From the NCBI GenBank assembly GCA_947494335.1, contig CANLUT010000003.1, positions 261,381 to 325,380 on the forward strand: 64,000 nucleotides of DNA, written 5' to 3'. The stretch's first letter is position 1. The number at the start of each line of letters is the position of its first letter. The position numbers and the translations under genes were made by a program. The notes beneath the pieces are model-generated. The model searched no databases. It was not told the DNA's origin and worked only from the letters and a program-made list of their open reading frames with translations. Below, one piece after another: positions 14,526 through 21,656 of the stretch. The stretch comes from Oligoflexales bacterium. Its GTDB lineage: Bacteria; Bdellovibrionota_B; Oligoflexia; Oligoflexales; RGVZ01.

Positions 14526-15683
14526 TTAGTCGAGTACCTTTTCACCCCGCATATCTAAAGATGTAGCGAAACTAAATCCGTCAGGAATGCTGATTCCTAC
14601 ATACATTTCCTTTAAATCGTCCCATGAAACCGAGTAGAACCCTGAGGATCCATCGTATCGGCCCCAGGTATTTTCGATTTTGAGACGTTCGATTCGTGAT
14701 TTTGAATCAAGGCGGTAACCAACGATATTAACGACATGACCGTCAATATGTCCGACCAGTGGTTTTTGGATCACGGTCATGATTCCATTTTTGATGCGGA
14801 TTCCAGAGTCGCTCCAGTTGACTGAGAGTAAAACACTGCGTCCCGAGGAAATTTCATGAACGATCGCTTTTTCAATATTTTCCCAGCTGGTTAAAAATCC
14901 GTTTTGAACCGTCTGAAGGTGTTCCTTAGTTGGTTTGCTTGGATAATGTGGCTTGGCCAGGTAAATTACATATGCTTCAGGATCTTCTGGAGCAAACGTT
15001 TTAGCAAATTCCAAAGGAGATGTTTTCTTGCCATCGAACATAAACCAGGTGGGTTGGTGAACGTTATATGTTTTTAAAAGAGATTTGAAATGACTCTCTG
15101 CAGATGCCAGCAGGGGTTTTGTGTCTTTGCCCTGGATGTTGTGTTCTTTAAACTTTTGGCGATACTGCAGGGCGATTTCGTTCAACTCAACTGCCATCTG
15201 ACCCCACTTGTTCGCTGGTTGTGACCAAGTTTTTTCCGGCATAACTCCGTAACGTCGAGCGAGTTGCCGAACTTCATTCATTTCTCCTCCGGATTCTAAC
15301 TCTGCTGAGATAACTTTTGCGCCTTGAATAATACGATAAAATCTCTCATGAAGGCTCGACATCATCATGTGTTCAGCTGATAAGGCGAGGCCCTTGCCGG
15401 TTTTCTTGTAGTGGGCAAACTCAAGTTCCTTGATTCCCGCCTGTAGCCAGCAGGTATTCAGCCAGTTTGTCAGGCGCCTCGATACATCGGGCAGTTCCTT
15501 GGTCATCCTGAATTCCGGAAGATGGCTTTTCGAGTTTTCCGAGCGCTTAACAGGGTCTTTTTCAGAGCCTGAAAGGACAGATGGCGAAGTTATCTGTGTT
15601 CCGCGACATCCACTTAAAAGGGACAAGATCAGAAGGGAGTGGCTGAGTCTATTTTTTAATTGTGGGACGCTTTGAAAGGTCAT
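14526..15683 (-). CDS. Papain-like (C1B, bleomycin hydrolase type) cysteine peptidase lipoprotein
   Basis: The chosen ATG follows AGGAG, and the signal peptide ends in SLLSGC, a strong lipobox. The papain triad is recognisable: cysteine in LNTCWLQAG (like RCWxF in bleomycin hydrolase), histidine in HVVNIVGYRLD and asparagine in IENTWGRYDG. The DALSAEHMM-like stretch (LALSAEHMMMS) also fits the C1B family. C1B peptidases are normally cytoplasmic aminopeptidases; this one should sit in the envelope. It follows an outer-membrane protein gene by 14 bases, so the two are likely one operon. Confidence 0.8.
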   Translation of the reverse strand: MTFQSVPQLKNRLSHSLLILSLLSGCRGTQITSPSVLSGSEKDPVKRSENSKSHLPEFRMTKELPDVSRRLTNWLNTCWLQAGIKELEFAHYKKTGKGLALSAEHMMMSSLHERFYRIIQGAKVISAELESGGEMNEVRQLARRYGVMPEKTWSQPANKWGQMAVELNEIALQYRQKFKEHNIQGKDTKPLLASAESHFKSLLKTYNVHQPTWFMFDGKKTSPLEFAKTFAPEDPEAYVIYLAKPHYPSKPTKEHLQTVQNGFLTSWENIEKAIVHEISSGRSVLLSVNWSDSGIRIKNGIMTVIQKPLVGHIDGHVVNIVGYRLDSKSRIERLKIENTWGRYDGSSGFYSVSWDDLKEMYVGISIPDGFSFATSLDMRGEKVLD

Positions 15684-15697
15684 CAAAACTCCTGTGA

Positions 15698-16876
15698 TCA
15701 CATGGATCCAAGATCAATATAGATAATGGCGGTAGTTCTGCGCTCGATCTCGCGATGATTGTTGATCCCAATATCAACAGCATTGGTCGAGGCTTCAACT
15801 CCGATTAGTCCTAGGTTCAGATGAGCCCCAGCACTCCATCCTGCATCATTGCCCCCAACACGAAGACCCAGAGGGCTTTTGCTATATCCATCCCCGAGCA
15901 GAAGTTCGAGGCCCCCGCGAATTTTTTTGCGAGCCGCCATGTGTTTTTGCGTGAGATATCCTCCCTCGAGGATAAAATTAAGGCGCCCAATTTTTCCAAG
16001 AGCTGGTGATATTGAGAATCCCGCTGTTAGGTCCTCATCATAGGTAAGAGGCTCGTCTTCCGAGTTAGTAGCTGTGTTTTGCGTATTTCCAAGGTTTCGC
16101 GCAACCAGTGAGAATGCCGGGTTCGCTGCCTTCGGGATTCGAATTGTGATTCCTGCATTCAGTGATTTTGCAGCGAATTCACTTCGATTTTCTTTGAGAA
16201 TTTTTTTTCGCTGATAAGAGTCGACCATATCGACGTAGTCGAATGTGCCTGATGTTTCTTCAATAGTACCGTAAGCTTGCGAGACCCCGAGCAACACGCG
16301 CTTTGACTTGTCTGAGGCCGAGGCGCCCAGCATTATGCCACTAAATGACCGGTATCGTAATTTTACTTGTCCTGAGTCGTCACCTACCGGAACAGCGGCG
16401 AGCTGATGATCGACTACAGGGACTATGGCGGTATTACCGATAAAAAGACCTAGGGGCACAATCGACGCGCGCGCAAACTGCCGCTTACCGGAGTGGGCAT
16501 CGATAATCGCTGCTCCTGTATTAGCGTCATTTTGGGCCTGTTGCGCATTAAATTCAGAGCGTACAGTGCCAGCATTCTGATTGAGACTACCGGCCGCGTA
16601 TGGAAAATAGAGTGATTTGACCATTGATGATCCATCACTTTTGCTGTTGAGACCGAGTCCAGCAATACTAGCCGGGTTGTAGTACAGAGCGTCAAGGCGA
16701 TCGGCAAGAGTGCTGAGAGCACCGCCCAGTCCTGCAGCCCGGCAAGAGGCAAAGGGAGATGGATCAAGCACAGTATCCGTATTAGGCAAGGAAGATGTAC
16801 TTGTTTGCGCGTATGCGAACTGCGACAAGCCAGCAAAAAATAGCCAGATGCTAACTTTTCCAGTTATTGGTTCCAA
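15698..16876 (-). CDS. Outer-membrane beta-barrel protein (PorV/FadL-like)
   Basis: A 392-residue protein with a signal peptide ending AYAQ. The conserved start of the barrel, CRAAGLGGALSTLADRLDALYYNPASIAGL, matches the FadL/PorV/PorQ type in which a YNPA element follows the first strand. The rest alternates hydrophobic and polar residues and ends in an aromatic-rich strand (RRTTAIIYIDLGSM). The start is TTG with a strong GAGGAGGGG site. It probably shares a transcript with the C1B lipoprotein. The cargo is unknown. Confidence 0.78.
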   Translation of the reverse strand: MEPITGKVSIWLFFAGLSQFAYAQTSTSSLPNTDTVLDPSPFASCRAAGLGGALSTLADRLDALYYNPASIAGLGLNSKSDGSSMVKSLYFPYAAGSLNQNAGTVRSEFNAQQAQNDANTGAAIIDAHSGKRQFARASIVPLGLFIGNTAIVPVVDHQLAAVPVGDDSGQVKLRYRSFSGIMLGASASDKSKRVLLGVSQAYGTIEETSGTFDYVDMVDSYQRKKILKENRSEFAAKSLNAGITIRIPKAANPAFSLVARNLGNTQNTATNSEDEPLTYDEDLTAGFSISPALGKIGRLNFILEGGYLTQKHMAARKKIRGGLELLLGDGYSKSPLGLRVGGNDAGWSAGAHLNLGLIGVEASTNAVDIGINNHREIERRTTAIIYIDLGSM

Positions 16877-17026: not shown

Positions 17027-17680
17027 CTATTTTTTAAGTTCAGAGCGCAACACCATCCAAATTTCGAAGTATTTCCAAGCAGGCGGTACATCATGCCCCT
17101 GTTCGTGATCAGGTCGTAAAATTAGATCACCGGTGGCAGTCAGGAGGCGTCGAACCTCCGCATTTTGTTCCAGCTTAGACTTCATCGCATGGTAAATAAT
17201 CTTGTAGTGGTCGCCTTTTTCCGGCGTGCGATAGGTCATCTTTTTGCCCTGATAAGTGACCCAATTGATGTTCATCGCTTTCATATTTTGTTCTGCGAGG
17301 TTGCCGGCATGCTTTGCTTCAAAGCCCGTCATTTTCGCAACTTGATCTCGCGTAAACTTCCAAACCAGTCTTGGAAATTTCAAGCGTTCATCCTCTGCTC
17401 CTTCAGGATATTTCATCATTTGCCAGAAGCCTTCGATGCCTGGATATTTTTTACCGTCAAGCTCAATAGGGGTTGCTGCAAAGTTCGAAAGAATTCCAAG
17501 CTCAGTTCTCTTGGATAAAATCACCTCACCTGGTTTTGCTTGCTGGGGAAGTATCTCCCATGATGCAGCATCGCTTCGCGGGACCGGCTGCCACCACGCG
17601 GCAGGATAATTCGTTTTCTGAATACCTTTTCCCATTGCTGGTAAAGATAAAGATGCCGCAAGTAATATGACAAGTTTCAT
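17027..17680 (-). CDS. Exported NADAR-domain protein (YbiA-like fold)
   Basis: After a signal peptide (MKLVILLAASLSLPAMG) the protein reads ILSNFAATPIELDGKKYPGIE and GFWQMMKYP, which is the opening signature of NADAR/YbiA proteins. It continues with NLAEQNMKAM, an alpha-helical middle, and the ending VRRLLTATGDLIL. The ATG at 17680 has a CAGGAG ribosome site; the frame extends 13 codons further without one. NADAR proteins act on riboflavin intermediates or remove ADP-ribose from guanine in nucleic acids, all in the cytoplasm. Export of the domain is unusual. Its length of 217 residues fits one domain plus a signal. Confidence 0.75.
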   Translation of the reverse strand: MKLVILLAASLSLPAMGKGIQKTNYPAAWWQPVPRSDAASWEILPQQAKPGEVILSKRTELGILSNFAATPIELDGKKYPGIEGFWQMMKYPEGAEDERLKFPRLVWKFTRDQVAKMTGFEAKHAGNLAEQNMKAMNINWVTYQGKKMTYRTPEKGDHYKIIYHAMKSKLEQNAEVRRLLTATGDLILRPDHEQGHDVPPAWKYFEIWMVLRSELKK

Positions 17681-17930
17681 GATTGCAAGAACTCCTGGAC
17701 TACTAGAACGGACGTACACAAGTTTTTTTGAACAAAAAAAACAGCGAAAACTTTAAATATTCCTAAACGATACTGCGTCGATTGAAAAACATACTAAAAA
17801 TGCATTGATTTCGATGGGATCACAAAGGCTTATACATTTAACAGCGGTTTTTTTGAAGGTCGCATGAATTCGGCTTACCATAGTAGAAGACCTTTCATCA
17901 TCAAAAATCATAACCTTTTACGGGGTCATC

Positions 17931-20408
17931 ATGAAGCCAACTGCAACTGGTCGATTACGAATTGCATCAATTTTTGCCATGATTTTGGCCTTTGTTGCTG
18001 TCAGTTACGCTTGTAAGCCACGAACAGACGCCTCCCGGGTTCAGGGTGATGAATTATCTGGACGTGGGTCCTATCCGATTTGGTCTTATGATGCAGGGCC
18101 GAACCCTAAAACGGACATTGGCAACGAACTAATCAATCTCCAAGCAAACATTCCTTACTTCCCCGGTCTCTCGTATGCCATCTTTGGTGATCAAATGTTT
18201 CGTCCAGCATTTGGTCCAGTTTTGTGGCGTATGCTCCAAGAGCCAAACAGTGTAAAGATTCTTTTCATTGGTCAGGATGCTACCCATATCGCTGAGGCTG
18301 CTGGCCGCACGGCGACCGCAGGATTCGGTGGGCGTGCGCAAGATCTAGCGAAATATTTTGGTGTTGGCTCGAGCGCTGCTTTCATCAACACATTCCCTTA
18401 TACCATTCGCTGGCAGTACTCATTTTTTGATGCTCCCATCGTTAATGGTGCGTCTGGAAGCGAGAAGCTATCGTACGGATCACTAACTTCAAATCCTGTT
18501 TGGTTGCTATCTCAAGATCTTGAAAGTCCGATCGTCAAGTGGCGCAATCAGTTGATTTCCTGGATTATCAAAAATAATAAAAAGTCTCTGAAGATGATCG
18601 TTTTGTTCGGTGGTGCAGCACGAGACACCATGGGCACATTCATTACAGCAAATGGCGGAACGGTTGGTAGTCGCTACGATGCGGCAGAACTGGCGAATAT
18701 CAAGGTGCCAGAATTTCAATATGTCTATAGCGGCGGTAACACTCAGGCTATAAGCCCATTGACGGCTGACGGAAAAGATCTTTACCGAGAGTTCAATGGT
18801 CAAGCCCCGAACTACGAAGATGAACCCAAGATGAACGAGTTGCGCTCGAGATTCCAGCAGGATTTCAATGCCAACCCGTCACGCTGGACCCAGAAAATGG
18901 TTTTCTCGCGCGGCGGCGTTAAGGGAAGTGGCGTGATTCATCCGGCCCAAATTGGTGGCTACGATGTAAACCGAAAAATGATGGTCAATGGTAAACAGAC
19001 AATTTCTCTCAAAGGTATGAAGCTACAGGATGGAACTTTGATCGATGGCGATTTACTTGTCACCCAGTTACCACACCCGACTGCATTGAGTAGCATGACG
19101 GATACAGATGCTTCCGCTGCTGTAAAAAATGGAATCAAGCCGCTTGAGCCGTACAGCAGATCTGGCTGGAAGATTGAGCCAGATCGTGGATTTTCGAGTG
19201 CGTTTACAGAAGGCAAAGACTACCGCTATGCAAGAGCTTCGATGGGAACAGAGTACTATGATTTCGGAGCTCCGAATTCGCGTATGGTGAATGTATCGTC
19301 GGCATCTCGCATGTCTACGAATGTGATTGTCTTCGGTACGCGCGACAAAGTTAGTTTTGATCAGGAGGCGATCAAGTCGATGACGTACGCAACTCCGTCG
19401 TCTTATCCGCCTAATAGCGAAGTTTGGCTGACTAAACCGAATAGTACCGATGGTTCTCGTAACCAAAGCCTGAAAAATCGTCGCTACGCATTTGATCCGG
19501 GGCCTCCTGAAGAATTTGCAAAATTGATGAAAACATCTCTACCAAAAGACGAAAACTTCATCCGCAAGCGCGACGATAACGGTGATTATGCGCACTACCG
19601 CGGTACCTTTAACGCTCCACGTGTTTTGATCGTCGCTGATCCAGACGGTTATGACGATCTGATTACGGCAAGAGCGCTCACTGGAACTCGGGGCCAGTAT
19701 CTGCAGTCATTAATGGATAGCATGGGTGTTGGTACAAATTATCTCGTCATTAAAACGGCGCCCTACGGTCAGGATCCCGATTGGCAAGATACATTCAATG
19801 CTACTAAGCCTTATAGAGAAGCGCTGCTTAAGAAGATCGTTTCGTCCCATAAGCCTGAACTGGTGCTAACAGACGGGCCCTTTGCAAAAGCAGAAGTGGC
19901 ACGAATTCTTACAGCAAATAGCTTAACCGTTGTAAACATCGAGCGTAGTGGCAATGCTAACAGTAGTGGTATTGAACAAGCAGTCGCTCAAATCAAAAAA
20001 ATTCCAGCTTTTAGCCGTGCATCTTTCTCGGGGAAGATGACAGATATTCCTCGTCTACACATGACATATTATGCTCGTGCATGGGAAGGCACATCGGGTG
20101 ACCGCGTGATTGCATCGCCAGATCCTAAGTATGCTGGGAAGGCTTACGCATTTGTAGCGCCGCGTTGGGCTTATCAACAGAAGTATTCCATGCCAGCGAA
20201 TGAAATTGCAGGCTGTGAGAAATTATTCATGAAAGCAGTTCAGGCAAAAGTTCGTCTGGGTGGTGAGCCAATCGTTAAAATGTCTGAGCGCTTACGCACT
20301 GGTGTAGTTCCGGCTAGTCCTTGTCAGGGGCTAAGTCGTGAGGATACATCATCGGTCGAAGTCGATACGATAAGTTCAGTAGAAGAGACCAGGCCTGAGC
20401 GACTTTGA
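17931..20408 (+). CDS. Exported protein with two uracil-DNA-glycosylase-like domains
   Basis: An 825-residue protein with a signal sequence ending SYAC (residue 28), so either a lipoprotein with a weak lipobox or a secreted protein. The first domain (about 60-420) has KILFIGQDATH (residues 109-119, compare GQDPYH), KMIVLFGGAARD (compare VVFLLWG), and LPHPTALS (380-387, compare HPSPLS). These are the three hallmark segments of uracil-DNA glycosylase, in order. A second domain (about 560-700) has VLIVADPDGYDD then GTRGQYLQSLMDSMG, like family 4/5 enzymes. Catalysis and target are unknown. It starts with an ACGGGG site and ends at a clear terminator. Confidence 0.7.
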   Translation: MKPTATGRLRIASIFAMILAFVAVSYACKPRTDASRVQGDELSGRGSYPIWSYDAGPNPKTDIGNELINLQANIPYFPGLSYAIFGDQMFRPAFGPVLWRMLQEPNSVKILFIGQDATHIAEAAGRTATAGFGGRAQDLAKYFGVGSSAAFINTFPYTIRWQYSFFDAPIVNGASGSEKLSYGSLTSNPVWLLSQDLESPIVKWRNQLISWIIKNNKKSLKMIVLFGGAARDTMGTFITANGGTVGSRYDAAELANIKVPEFQYVYSGGNTQAISPLTADGKDLYREFNGQAPNYEDEPKMNELRSRFQQDFNANPSRWTQKMVFSRGGVKGSGVIHPAQIGGYDVNRKMMVNGKQTISLKGMKLQDGTLIDGDLLVTQLPHPTALSSMTDTDASAAVKNGIKPLEPYSRSGWKIEPDRGFSSAFTEGKDYRYARASMGTEYYDFGAPNSRMVNVSSASRMSTNVIVFGTRDKVSFDQEAIKSMTYATPSSYPPNSEVWLTKPNSTDGSRNQSLKNRRYAFDPGPPEEFAKLMKTSLPKDENFIRKRDDNGDYAHYRGTFNAPRVLIVADPDGYDDLITARALTGTRGQYLQSLMDSMGVGTNYLVIKTAPYGQDPDWQDTFNATKPYREALLKKIVSSHKPELVLTDGPFAKAEVARILTANSLTVVNIERSGNANSSGIEQAVAQIKKIPAFSRASFSGKMTDIPRLHMTYYARAWEGTSGDRVIASPDPKYAGKAYAFVAPRWAYQQKYSMPANEIAGCEKLFMKAVQAKVRLGGEPIVKMSERLRTGVVPASPCQGLSREDTSSVEVDTISSVEETRPERL

Positions 20409-20474: not shown

Positions 20475-21371
20475 TTAATCCAAATTGAAAACAGTCTTTA
20501 CCGCGCAGTGATCAGAGATGGTGTCGTTATATCTCTGGAGGGTTCTGCGATCAGATTGGTTGCAAGGGCCAATGATGTGATGAAAGCTGACTTTATCTGC
20601 TAAGGTCCCAGTGATCCAGGCACGATCAAATTTCGCAGGTTCATAGCTTTCGTGAGTCGTTGCCCAGGAAAATTTTTCAGGAGATGGGACTTCTTCCATT
20701 TGGCTTCCTGCAAGGATTCTGGAGAAGTTTTCTGGGTCATCGCCGTATGTGTTGAAGTCGCCAACGATTGTTACCGGAAGAGTTTCGCTATCGCGCTTAA
20801 TATATTTGGAAATGACTTCCATCTGTCGGAGTCTCGTCGATGAAAAATCTGGAGCAGACTTCAAGTGAACGGCGAAAAGATGCATGACGGCTTTCCCGCC
20901 ACTGGTTTTGACGATTCCGTGAACTGCTGGTCGAAGCTCTCCATTGAGATCGACTTCGTCTAAAGTATAGGATTTTGAACCGGGAGCTTTTTCAAATTTT
21001 AAATGAGGCTTGACGCAAACGACTACGTGTTGATGCTCGGGGTCCCTGTGATTGTATGAGTAACAGTTGTAGCGCTTTTCAAGTAGGACGTCAGACAGCA
21101 ACTTAACGTCGACGATTTCCTCAAATGCCAGGACGTCAGCCATCAGGCCGCTGTCAGTCATGTGTTTGCGAATAGTTTGTATTCTAATCTCGTCTCTGGA
21201 GGCTTTGTTTTGAGATGTGTTGTGTTCTTTGGATCCAAACCAACGAAGGTTGAATTGAGCAAGACTAATTTGCTCTTTTCCGCCGTCAGATCGGGATGCT
21301 TTGGCGGAATACCCGCCACTCATGGTCATGGCTAGGAAGGTGAAGAGTAAATGGGACAACTTGAGTTTCAT
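20475..21371 (-). CDS. Exported endonuclease/exonuclease/phosphatase family protein
   Basis: The ATG at 21371 follows AAGGAG and gives a signal peptide (HLLFTFLAMTMSGGYSAKAS). The EEP fold is shown by LAQFNLRWFG (catalytic asparagine), ADVLAFEEIVD (metal-binding glutamate), LFAVHLKSA, TIVGDFNTYGDD and ISDHCAVKTVF. All key residues are present, so an active phosphodiesterase is likely. DNase I-like nucleases and sphingomyelinase-type enzymes share the fold, so the substrate is open; the Y/W/FG insert and the context favour a nuclease. It is 298 residues long. Confidence 0.85.
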   Translation of the reverse strand: MKLKLSHLLFTFLAMTMSGGYSAKASRSDGGKEQISLAQFNLRWFGSKEHNTSQNKASRDEIRIQTIRKHMTDSGLMADVLAFEEIVDVKLLSDVLLEKRYNCYSYNHRDPEHQHVVVCVKPHLKFEKAPGSKSYTLDEVDLNGELRPAVHGIVKTSGGKAVMHLFAVHLKSAPDFSSTRLRQMEVISKYIKRDSETLPVTIVGDFNTYGDDPENFSRILAGSQMEEVPSPEKFSWATTHESYEPAKFDRAWITGTLADKVSFHHIIGPCNQSDRRTLQRYNDTISDHCAVKTVFNLD

Positions 21372-21656
21372 GCAGGCTCCTTCTGCAGTTAGCGGCATCG
21401 CACCACAACGCCCGCATTCCATGCGGACTATTAAAAACACAACTTTGATTGACTCTTACTAAATAGTGTAACGCTTATTTTGGAGCTTGGAAATATTAAA
21501 AATTGTAACAGAATAGAATAATAAATTCGATCTCTTAGCGACAATAAGAATTATGACGAAAGTTTAATCCGTAAGCGAACATCAGCAACTGCCATATCGC
21601 TTTTACCAGAGAGTAAAGCCATACGGCAGTTGTATGTTAGTCAATGGCGACTTGAT

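Follow-up and report, generated by a model that had tools for sequence, protein, structure and literature searches.

The open reading frame at positions 17027-17680 of the 64,000-nucleotide stretch of DNA analyzed here (the window) codes for a member of a distinct family of exported NADAR-fold proteins, and on balance we favor the reading that these are N-glycosidases that act extracytoplasmically on nucleic acid or nucleotides. The family keeps the NADAR fold, a Glu and a Lys matched to catalytic residues of known NADARs, and predicted Sec signal peptides. The features of the gene are as follows:

17027..17680, minus strand: exported NADAR-fold protein of 217 aa, as predicted from the open reading frame, homologues and fold
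17692..17696, minus strand: Shine-Dalgarno-like AGGAG, read from the sequence, 11 nt before the ATG
17630..17680, minus strand: signal peptide, residues 1-17 with a predicted cleavage site, called by an in-house rule and conserved as a feature in homologues
17510..17614, minus strand: family-specific extension, residues 23-57 (YPxxWWxPVP...WEILPQxA...SKR), ahead of the NADAR core, defined by conserved rows
17030..17509, minus strand: NADAR core, residues 58-217, with E83 and K90 matched to the catalytic Glu and Lys and D191-H192 near the last-strand position

Start of the gene and its export signal

The frame runs from an ATG at 17680 to a stop at 17029-17027 on the minus strand, in agreement with the coordinates that had been proposed for it, and the ribosome site said to match this start is the AGGAG, at a spacing that is usable, if slightly long. 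The open frame reaches 17719 and makes an upstream GTG available; the ATG was preferred because of the AGGAG and because a textbook signal peptide opens there. The N-terminus, MKLVILLAASLSLPAMG followed by KG after the predicted cleavage, has one Lys and an uncharged h-region with a mean Kyte-Doolittle hydropathy of 2.97, and A-M-G would be a plausible cleavage site at the end of the peptide.

Export is conserved across the family

Signal peptides were called with an in-house rule, not SignalP, that requires an ATG, a positive n-region, an uncharged h-region with a mean hydropathy of at least 1.9 and finally either a lipobox or a small-x-small site. The rule was run on the upstream DNA in its true frame and, as a control, in the two other frames. 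Removal of near-identical copies reduced 132 homologues to 129, and L045 and one piece of L007 were then left out for want of an N-terminus. Among the remaining 127, signal peptides were called for 105 in the true frame, compared to 0 and 2 in the shifted frames, and the same test on an earlier set of 94 homologues gave 77 in the true frame and 0 and 1 in the shifted ones. Since the signal peptide is conserved in the true frame and near absent in the shifted frames, chance was ruled out as its source. The 105 signal peptides comprise 67 of type I (with a signal peptidase I site) and 38 of the lipoprotein type. When the 22 uncalled proteins were inspected by eye, 21 did show a hydrophobic stretch, alongside a start codon other than ATG, a lack of positive charge or a cropped sequence, and L022, which lies near a contig end, was the sole homologue without such a stretch.

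For comparison, among 27 canonical NADARs the strict rule accepted no protein and a relaxed one accepted a single protein; these 27 are the proteins in which the motif was found among 29 (30 loci drawn from 46 NADAR places, with L192 omitted because its N-terminus is missing). A comparison with neighboring ORFs was dropped as a specificity control, given that the permissive rule also called 244 of 478 of them, and for this reason it is the frame-shift control that carries the weight. On a tree of 126 rows the lipoprotein (SPII) label needs 18 changes when uncalled rows are counted as a third label, and at least 11 of these changes are forced by well supported branches. The repeated changes of this label suggest that export has been kept while its route has changed.

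The export signal would be an artifact if the start had been misannotated and the protein were cytoplasmic, beginning past the hydrophobic stretch. There is an in-frame ATG just after the stretch in 13 of the 127 homologues, including the window gene, but none in the other 114, and the hydrophobic stretch with its lipobox or cleavage site is conserved in the true frame only. We give this explanation almost no credence, and the original prediction withstood its own proposed check, namely whether homologues begin past the stretch or are devoid of it. Sec export of the family is, in contrast, well supported by sequence, and with it both the signal peptide that the original prediction had read from this single gene and the envelope location that it had drawn from it.

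Fold and family identity

The label NADAR held by homology and by fold but not by database cut-offs. The window protein matched PF08719 (NADAR) with an E value of 0.0021 and 18.7 bits, under the cut-off of 35.1; PF08010 (phage gp30.3) with 1.1e-7 and 32.2 bits, under the cut-off of 36; and TIGR02464 with 1.4e-6 and 28.6 bits, under the NCBI cut-off of 73.7. Its best PHROGs match was phrog_652 (E 3e-13), PADLOC gave a marginal match only (E 0.0011), and the sole meaningful sequence match in the PDB was YbiA (2b3w). Within A1, a set of 44 homologues, matches at E≤0.01 were obtained for all 44 proteins with PF08010 and for 40 with PF08719.

An AlphaFold2 model built from 44 homologues (pLDDT 94.1, pTM 0.86) has the NADAR (YbiA) fold, as modeled, with five core helices and two small sheets. 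With this model a structural aligner returned the NADAR of P. nicotianae (8bau, Z 11.8), E. coli YbiA (2b3w, Z 11.3) and the NADAR of G. lovleyi (8bat, Z 10.4), and no other real structure matches, the next row being at 2.9. Foldseek likewise returned YbiA (E 1.3e-5), the P. nicotianae NADAR-ADP-ribose complex and viral NADAR models. We regard the NADAR identity as settled because the fold matches NADAR structures, and the window protein is filed as a NADAR-fold relative rather than as a curated member of PF08719. A search of its own genome with PF08719 gave no canonical NADAR over the threshold, and this blank reflects a family too divergent for that model and not its absence.

The extension and the active site

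The extension ahead of the core sets the family apart. Its positions W29, W41, E42 and K57 are kept in 127 of 127 rows, and the WE..P motif occurs in 114 of 127 family rows versus 0 of 27 canonical NADARs. The mature part is also Cys-poor, a point in favor of the exported-enzyme reading: 90 of 129 family rows have no Cys from residue 25 on, versus 6 of the 27 canonical NADARs. C151 and C197 (window numbering) are found only together, in four rows of the 129 (L029, L122, L157 and L158), and this pair is likely to form a disulfide.

The mechanistic residues of the E. coli C7 NADAR are given as E88, K95 and D171, the last with a Glu as its counterpart in YbiA and a His in phage proteins, in PMC11543638. 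E83 of the window protein, present in 128 of 128 rows, matches the Glu of the distal ribose site (E88 in E. coli C7, E43 in P. nicotianae) and was aligned with YbiA. K90 follows seven residues later, the same spacing as for K95 (E. coli C7) and K50 (P. nicotianae), and is found in 125 of 128 rows. D191 (128/128) and H192 (127/128) are at most one or two places away from the last-strand catalytic position, where alignments differ, and the catalytic acid of that strand may be either of the two, with no firm assignment by sequence.

This uncertainty in aligning the last-strand residue, together with the Leu that replaces K90 in 3 of 128 rows, would suit a catalytically altered protein that binds without cleaving, for example a nucleic-acid binding lipoprotein. 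The near-complete retention of all four residues is, on the other hand, what would be expected of an active site, and we consider a mere binder very unlikely.

Relation to known NADARs

E. coli YbiA (TIGR02464), a riboflavin-intermediate N-glycosidase of the cytoplasmic type that also has guanine-ADPr hydrolase activity, shares the fold and the matched Glu and Lys with the window protein. Unlike the window protein it has neither a signal peptide nor the WW/WEILPQ extension, and the window protein does not retain the last-strand Glu of YbiA at the aligned place. The phage gp30.3 NADARs represent the best Pfam family for the exported proteins, but they work in the infected cell. The DarT1-linked NADAR antitoxins (BC4488 type, 8bat) have the same fold, and they too have an N-terminal extension before the core, although its sequence differs. 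The exported proteins differ from them further by their export and in that no DarT linkage was seen at the loci examined.

Distribution

A scan of the genome collection gave 46 loci with 43-65% identity to the window protein, from Bdellovibrionota, Planctomycetota, Verrucomicrobiota, Acidobacteriota, Ignavibacteriota and other phyla, with the proviso that a few MAG labels (e.g., Streptomyces griseus) look doubtful. The family was found in 54 of 129 genomes of the class of a Bacteriovoracaceae carrier and in 43 of 143 genomes of the class of a Bdellovibrionaceae carrier, and in 5 of 343 genomes of the phylum of a Phycisphaerae carrier. The window's own class yielded 2 carriers among 58 genomes, one of them with a fragment. 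As judged by these searches, the family is common in two classes of Bdellovibrionota and turns up sporadically in other phyla. One of the 37 carrier genomes searched, which represent all but nine of the 46 loci, has a canonical NADAR above the PF08719 cut-off. No close homologue was found among 50,697 phage records (four weak matches), a viral collection searched with A1 yielded no relative, and the matches from phages and plasmids were all of the gp30.3-like or YbiA kind.

Several individual members deserve mention. Eight genomes (G131, G132, G133, G134, G148, G149, G151 and G196) have two exported NADAR copies, and several of these genomes pair a copy of type I with one of the lipoprotein type, in different clades of the tree. 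The fragment L002 (genome G019) has 68 residues at 46% identity and one stop, and is perhaps a decayed gene; L007, as deposited in its assembly, is split by a stop. At L108 (331-1860, plus strand) a signal peptide and NADAR are fused to a C-terminal domain of ~280 aa (GHVAVEL ... GGGCSAFG), and at L036 (4989-6002, plus strand) the NADAR is followed by a Cys-rich tail of ~100 aa (KCPPCPPPNQCKPC). Neither the L108 domain nor the L036 tail matched a Pfam family over the cut-off.

Neighboring genes

Two genes near the NADAR gene in the window are of interest:

17931..20408, plus strand: predicted exported protein of 825 aa with two UDG-superfamily folds, divergent from the NADAR gene, identified by profile and structure matches
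20475..21440, minus strand: predicted exported protein of the Exo_endo_phos family (PF03372, E 7.7e-7), a possible loose partner

The 825 aa protein has an N-terminal export signal of its own, as far as can be read from its sequence, and no Pfam family. A profile of its family matched BdiUNG at positions ~73-148 (E 1.6e-4). Its structure model (pLDDT 76.7) has the UDG fold, as predicted: Foldseek matched the model to BdiUNG (E 2.1e-9), and residues 503-749 aligned with BdiUNG at Z 19.2 over 230 residues. The first UDG-like domain contains GQDxTH ... HPTxLS, which we take to be UDG motifs. By eye, relatives of the 825 aa protein seem to carry export signals too.

Relatives of the UDG-fold gene were found in the neighborhood of the NADAR gene at 8 of 95 loci and at 3 of 36 loci from a second class (11 of 131 in all), with varying placement, up- or downstream and on the same or the opposite strand. 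In one class the NADAR gene is present in 28 of 31 genomes with a UDG-fold gene versus 26 of 98 without (p 2e-10, uncorrected for kinship), and in the 12 of these 28 two-gene genomes in which both genes were placed, the two are neighbors in 6 and separated in the other 6. Of 56 genomes in the window's own class, 3 carry the UDG-fold gene, and in two of these the NADAR gene is absent.

Two further kinds of exported enzyme recur beside the NADAR gene. An Exo_endo_phos_3 gene of the nuclease type (EEP), its product predicted to be exported, lies immediately upstream at 14 of 95 loci, ending no more than ~20 nt from the NADAR frame or overlapping it, and a type I phosphodiesterase / nucleotide pyrophosphatase gene (PF01663, E 7e-86), whose product is lipoprotein-like by eye, adjoins it at 9 of 95. 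These neighbors are confined to one clade of 30 rows, with the exception of L155 and of weak, distant matches at L124 and in the window, where the product of 20475-21440 weakly matches the profile of the nuclease from the NADAR gene run of relatives (4e-6). Neither gene was found at the 36 loci from the second class, and none of the three partners (UDG-fold, EEP, phosphodiesterase) was found at the loci examined in carriers outside Bdellovibrionota. Of the proposed set, the window holds only the NADAR gene, the UDG-fold gene and the more distant EEP gene. Nucleotide pyrophosphatase and nuclease families are broad.

Other candidate neighbors were rejected: clusters from 28 and 19 loci were antisense ORFs and chained ABC transporters, and neighbors of the tpiA/secG/gmk type at four loci (three from Phycisphaerae and one from a MAG labeled Alphaproteobacteria) were judged to be synteny of relatives. 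Elsewhere in the window, 14526-15701 (minus strand) codes for a papain-like protein (Peptidase_C1_2) with an N-terminal hydrophobic stretch resembling a lipoprotein signal.

A possible role in nucleic acid processing

The bond that NADARs cut joins ribose to an exocyclic nitrogen. The exported NADAR would hydrolyze such a bond in the periplasm or at the cell surface, and that of predators might do so inside the prey. With an extracytoplasmic site and with nuclease, UDG-fold and pyrophosphatase partners, the simplest common denominator is the processing of nucleic acid or nucleotides, and the substrate would be modified nucleic acid or nucleotides, those of the prey in the case of predators. 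We propose that an exported EEP nuclease would open the nucleic acid, after which the NADAR and the exported UDG-fold protein, as N-glycosidases, would take off modified bases or ADP-ribose adducts, the exported type I phosphodiesterase / nucleotide pyrophosphatase would split the freed ADP-ribose or dinucleotides, and clean nucleotides would become available for uptake.

Predatory bacteria use secreted nucleases to break prey DNA down to nucleotides, which they then recycle (PMC7925074 and PMC12546842). The secreted predator nucleases (Bd0934 and Bd3507 among them) resemble the exported NADARs in being exported nucleic-acid enzymes, partly from the same bacterial groups, and differ from them in that no N-glycosidase is described in the part of PMC7925074 that was accessible. 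Two exported N-glycosidase folds would make sense if modified bases were cleaned away before nucleotides were reused. More specifically, it is possible, though we propose it only tentatively, that base excision takes place outside the cytoplasm, above all in predators, with NADAR, tandem-UDG protein, nuclease and pyrophosphatase cleaning foreign or prey nucleic acid; ADP-ribose, uracil or other modified bases would then be stripped before uptake and reuse of the nucleotides. As some carriers are bacteria with no known predatory habit, a wider version of the proposal would be extracellular scavenging of nucleic acid.

A different kind of recovery would be the scavenging of small ribosyl-N compounds, such as riboflavin intermediates or NAD breakdown products, as nutrients and with no nucleic acid damage involved. 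YbiA cleaves riboflavin intermediates (PMC11543638), and the phosphodiesterase that adjoins some of the NADAR genes could act on NAD or ADP-ribose. This explanation leaves the recurrent UDG-fold partner unaccounted for, however, and we consider it unlikely.

The original prediction had offered two substrates for an envelope NADAR. Of these, ADP-ribosylated nucleic acid would fit the setting of exported UDG-fold protein, nuclease and nucleotide pyrophosphatase. The other, the product of an ADP-ribosylating toxin, found no direct support: DarT was present in just 5 of 39 carrier genomes and absent from that of the window, and no ADP-ribosyltransferase was recognized among the recurrent neighbor clusters examined. 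These observations also bear on the idea of an exported antitoxin or shield that removes ADP-ribose attached by hostile toxins outside or entering the cell. Secreted guanine-modifying toxins (ScARP and Scabin) do exist, but the known NADAR substrates are cytoplasmic nucleic acids, and such a shield seems to us rather improbable.

Implications

The accessible NADAR literature discusses cytoplasmic or virion roles, with NADARs treated as damage-control enzymes and antitoxins of the cytoplasm, and a search of it, in the portions available, returned no report of an exported NADAR; a literature search likewise returned no report of an exported UDG in predators. The exported branch, as delineated by its sequences, is a widespread sister family of an enzyme type known only inside cells, where ADP-ribose or sugar is removed by it from nitrogen bases. 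Its breadth would mean that the reach of NADAR chemistry extends beyond the cytoplasm, to places where we know of no endogenous NADAR substrate. The recurrent link to UDG-fold proteins gives rise to the testable idea that these bacteria rid extracellular or prey nucleic acid of modified bases, and it names candidate genes in tractable predators.
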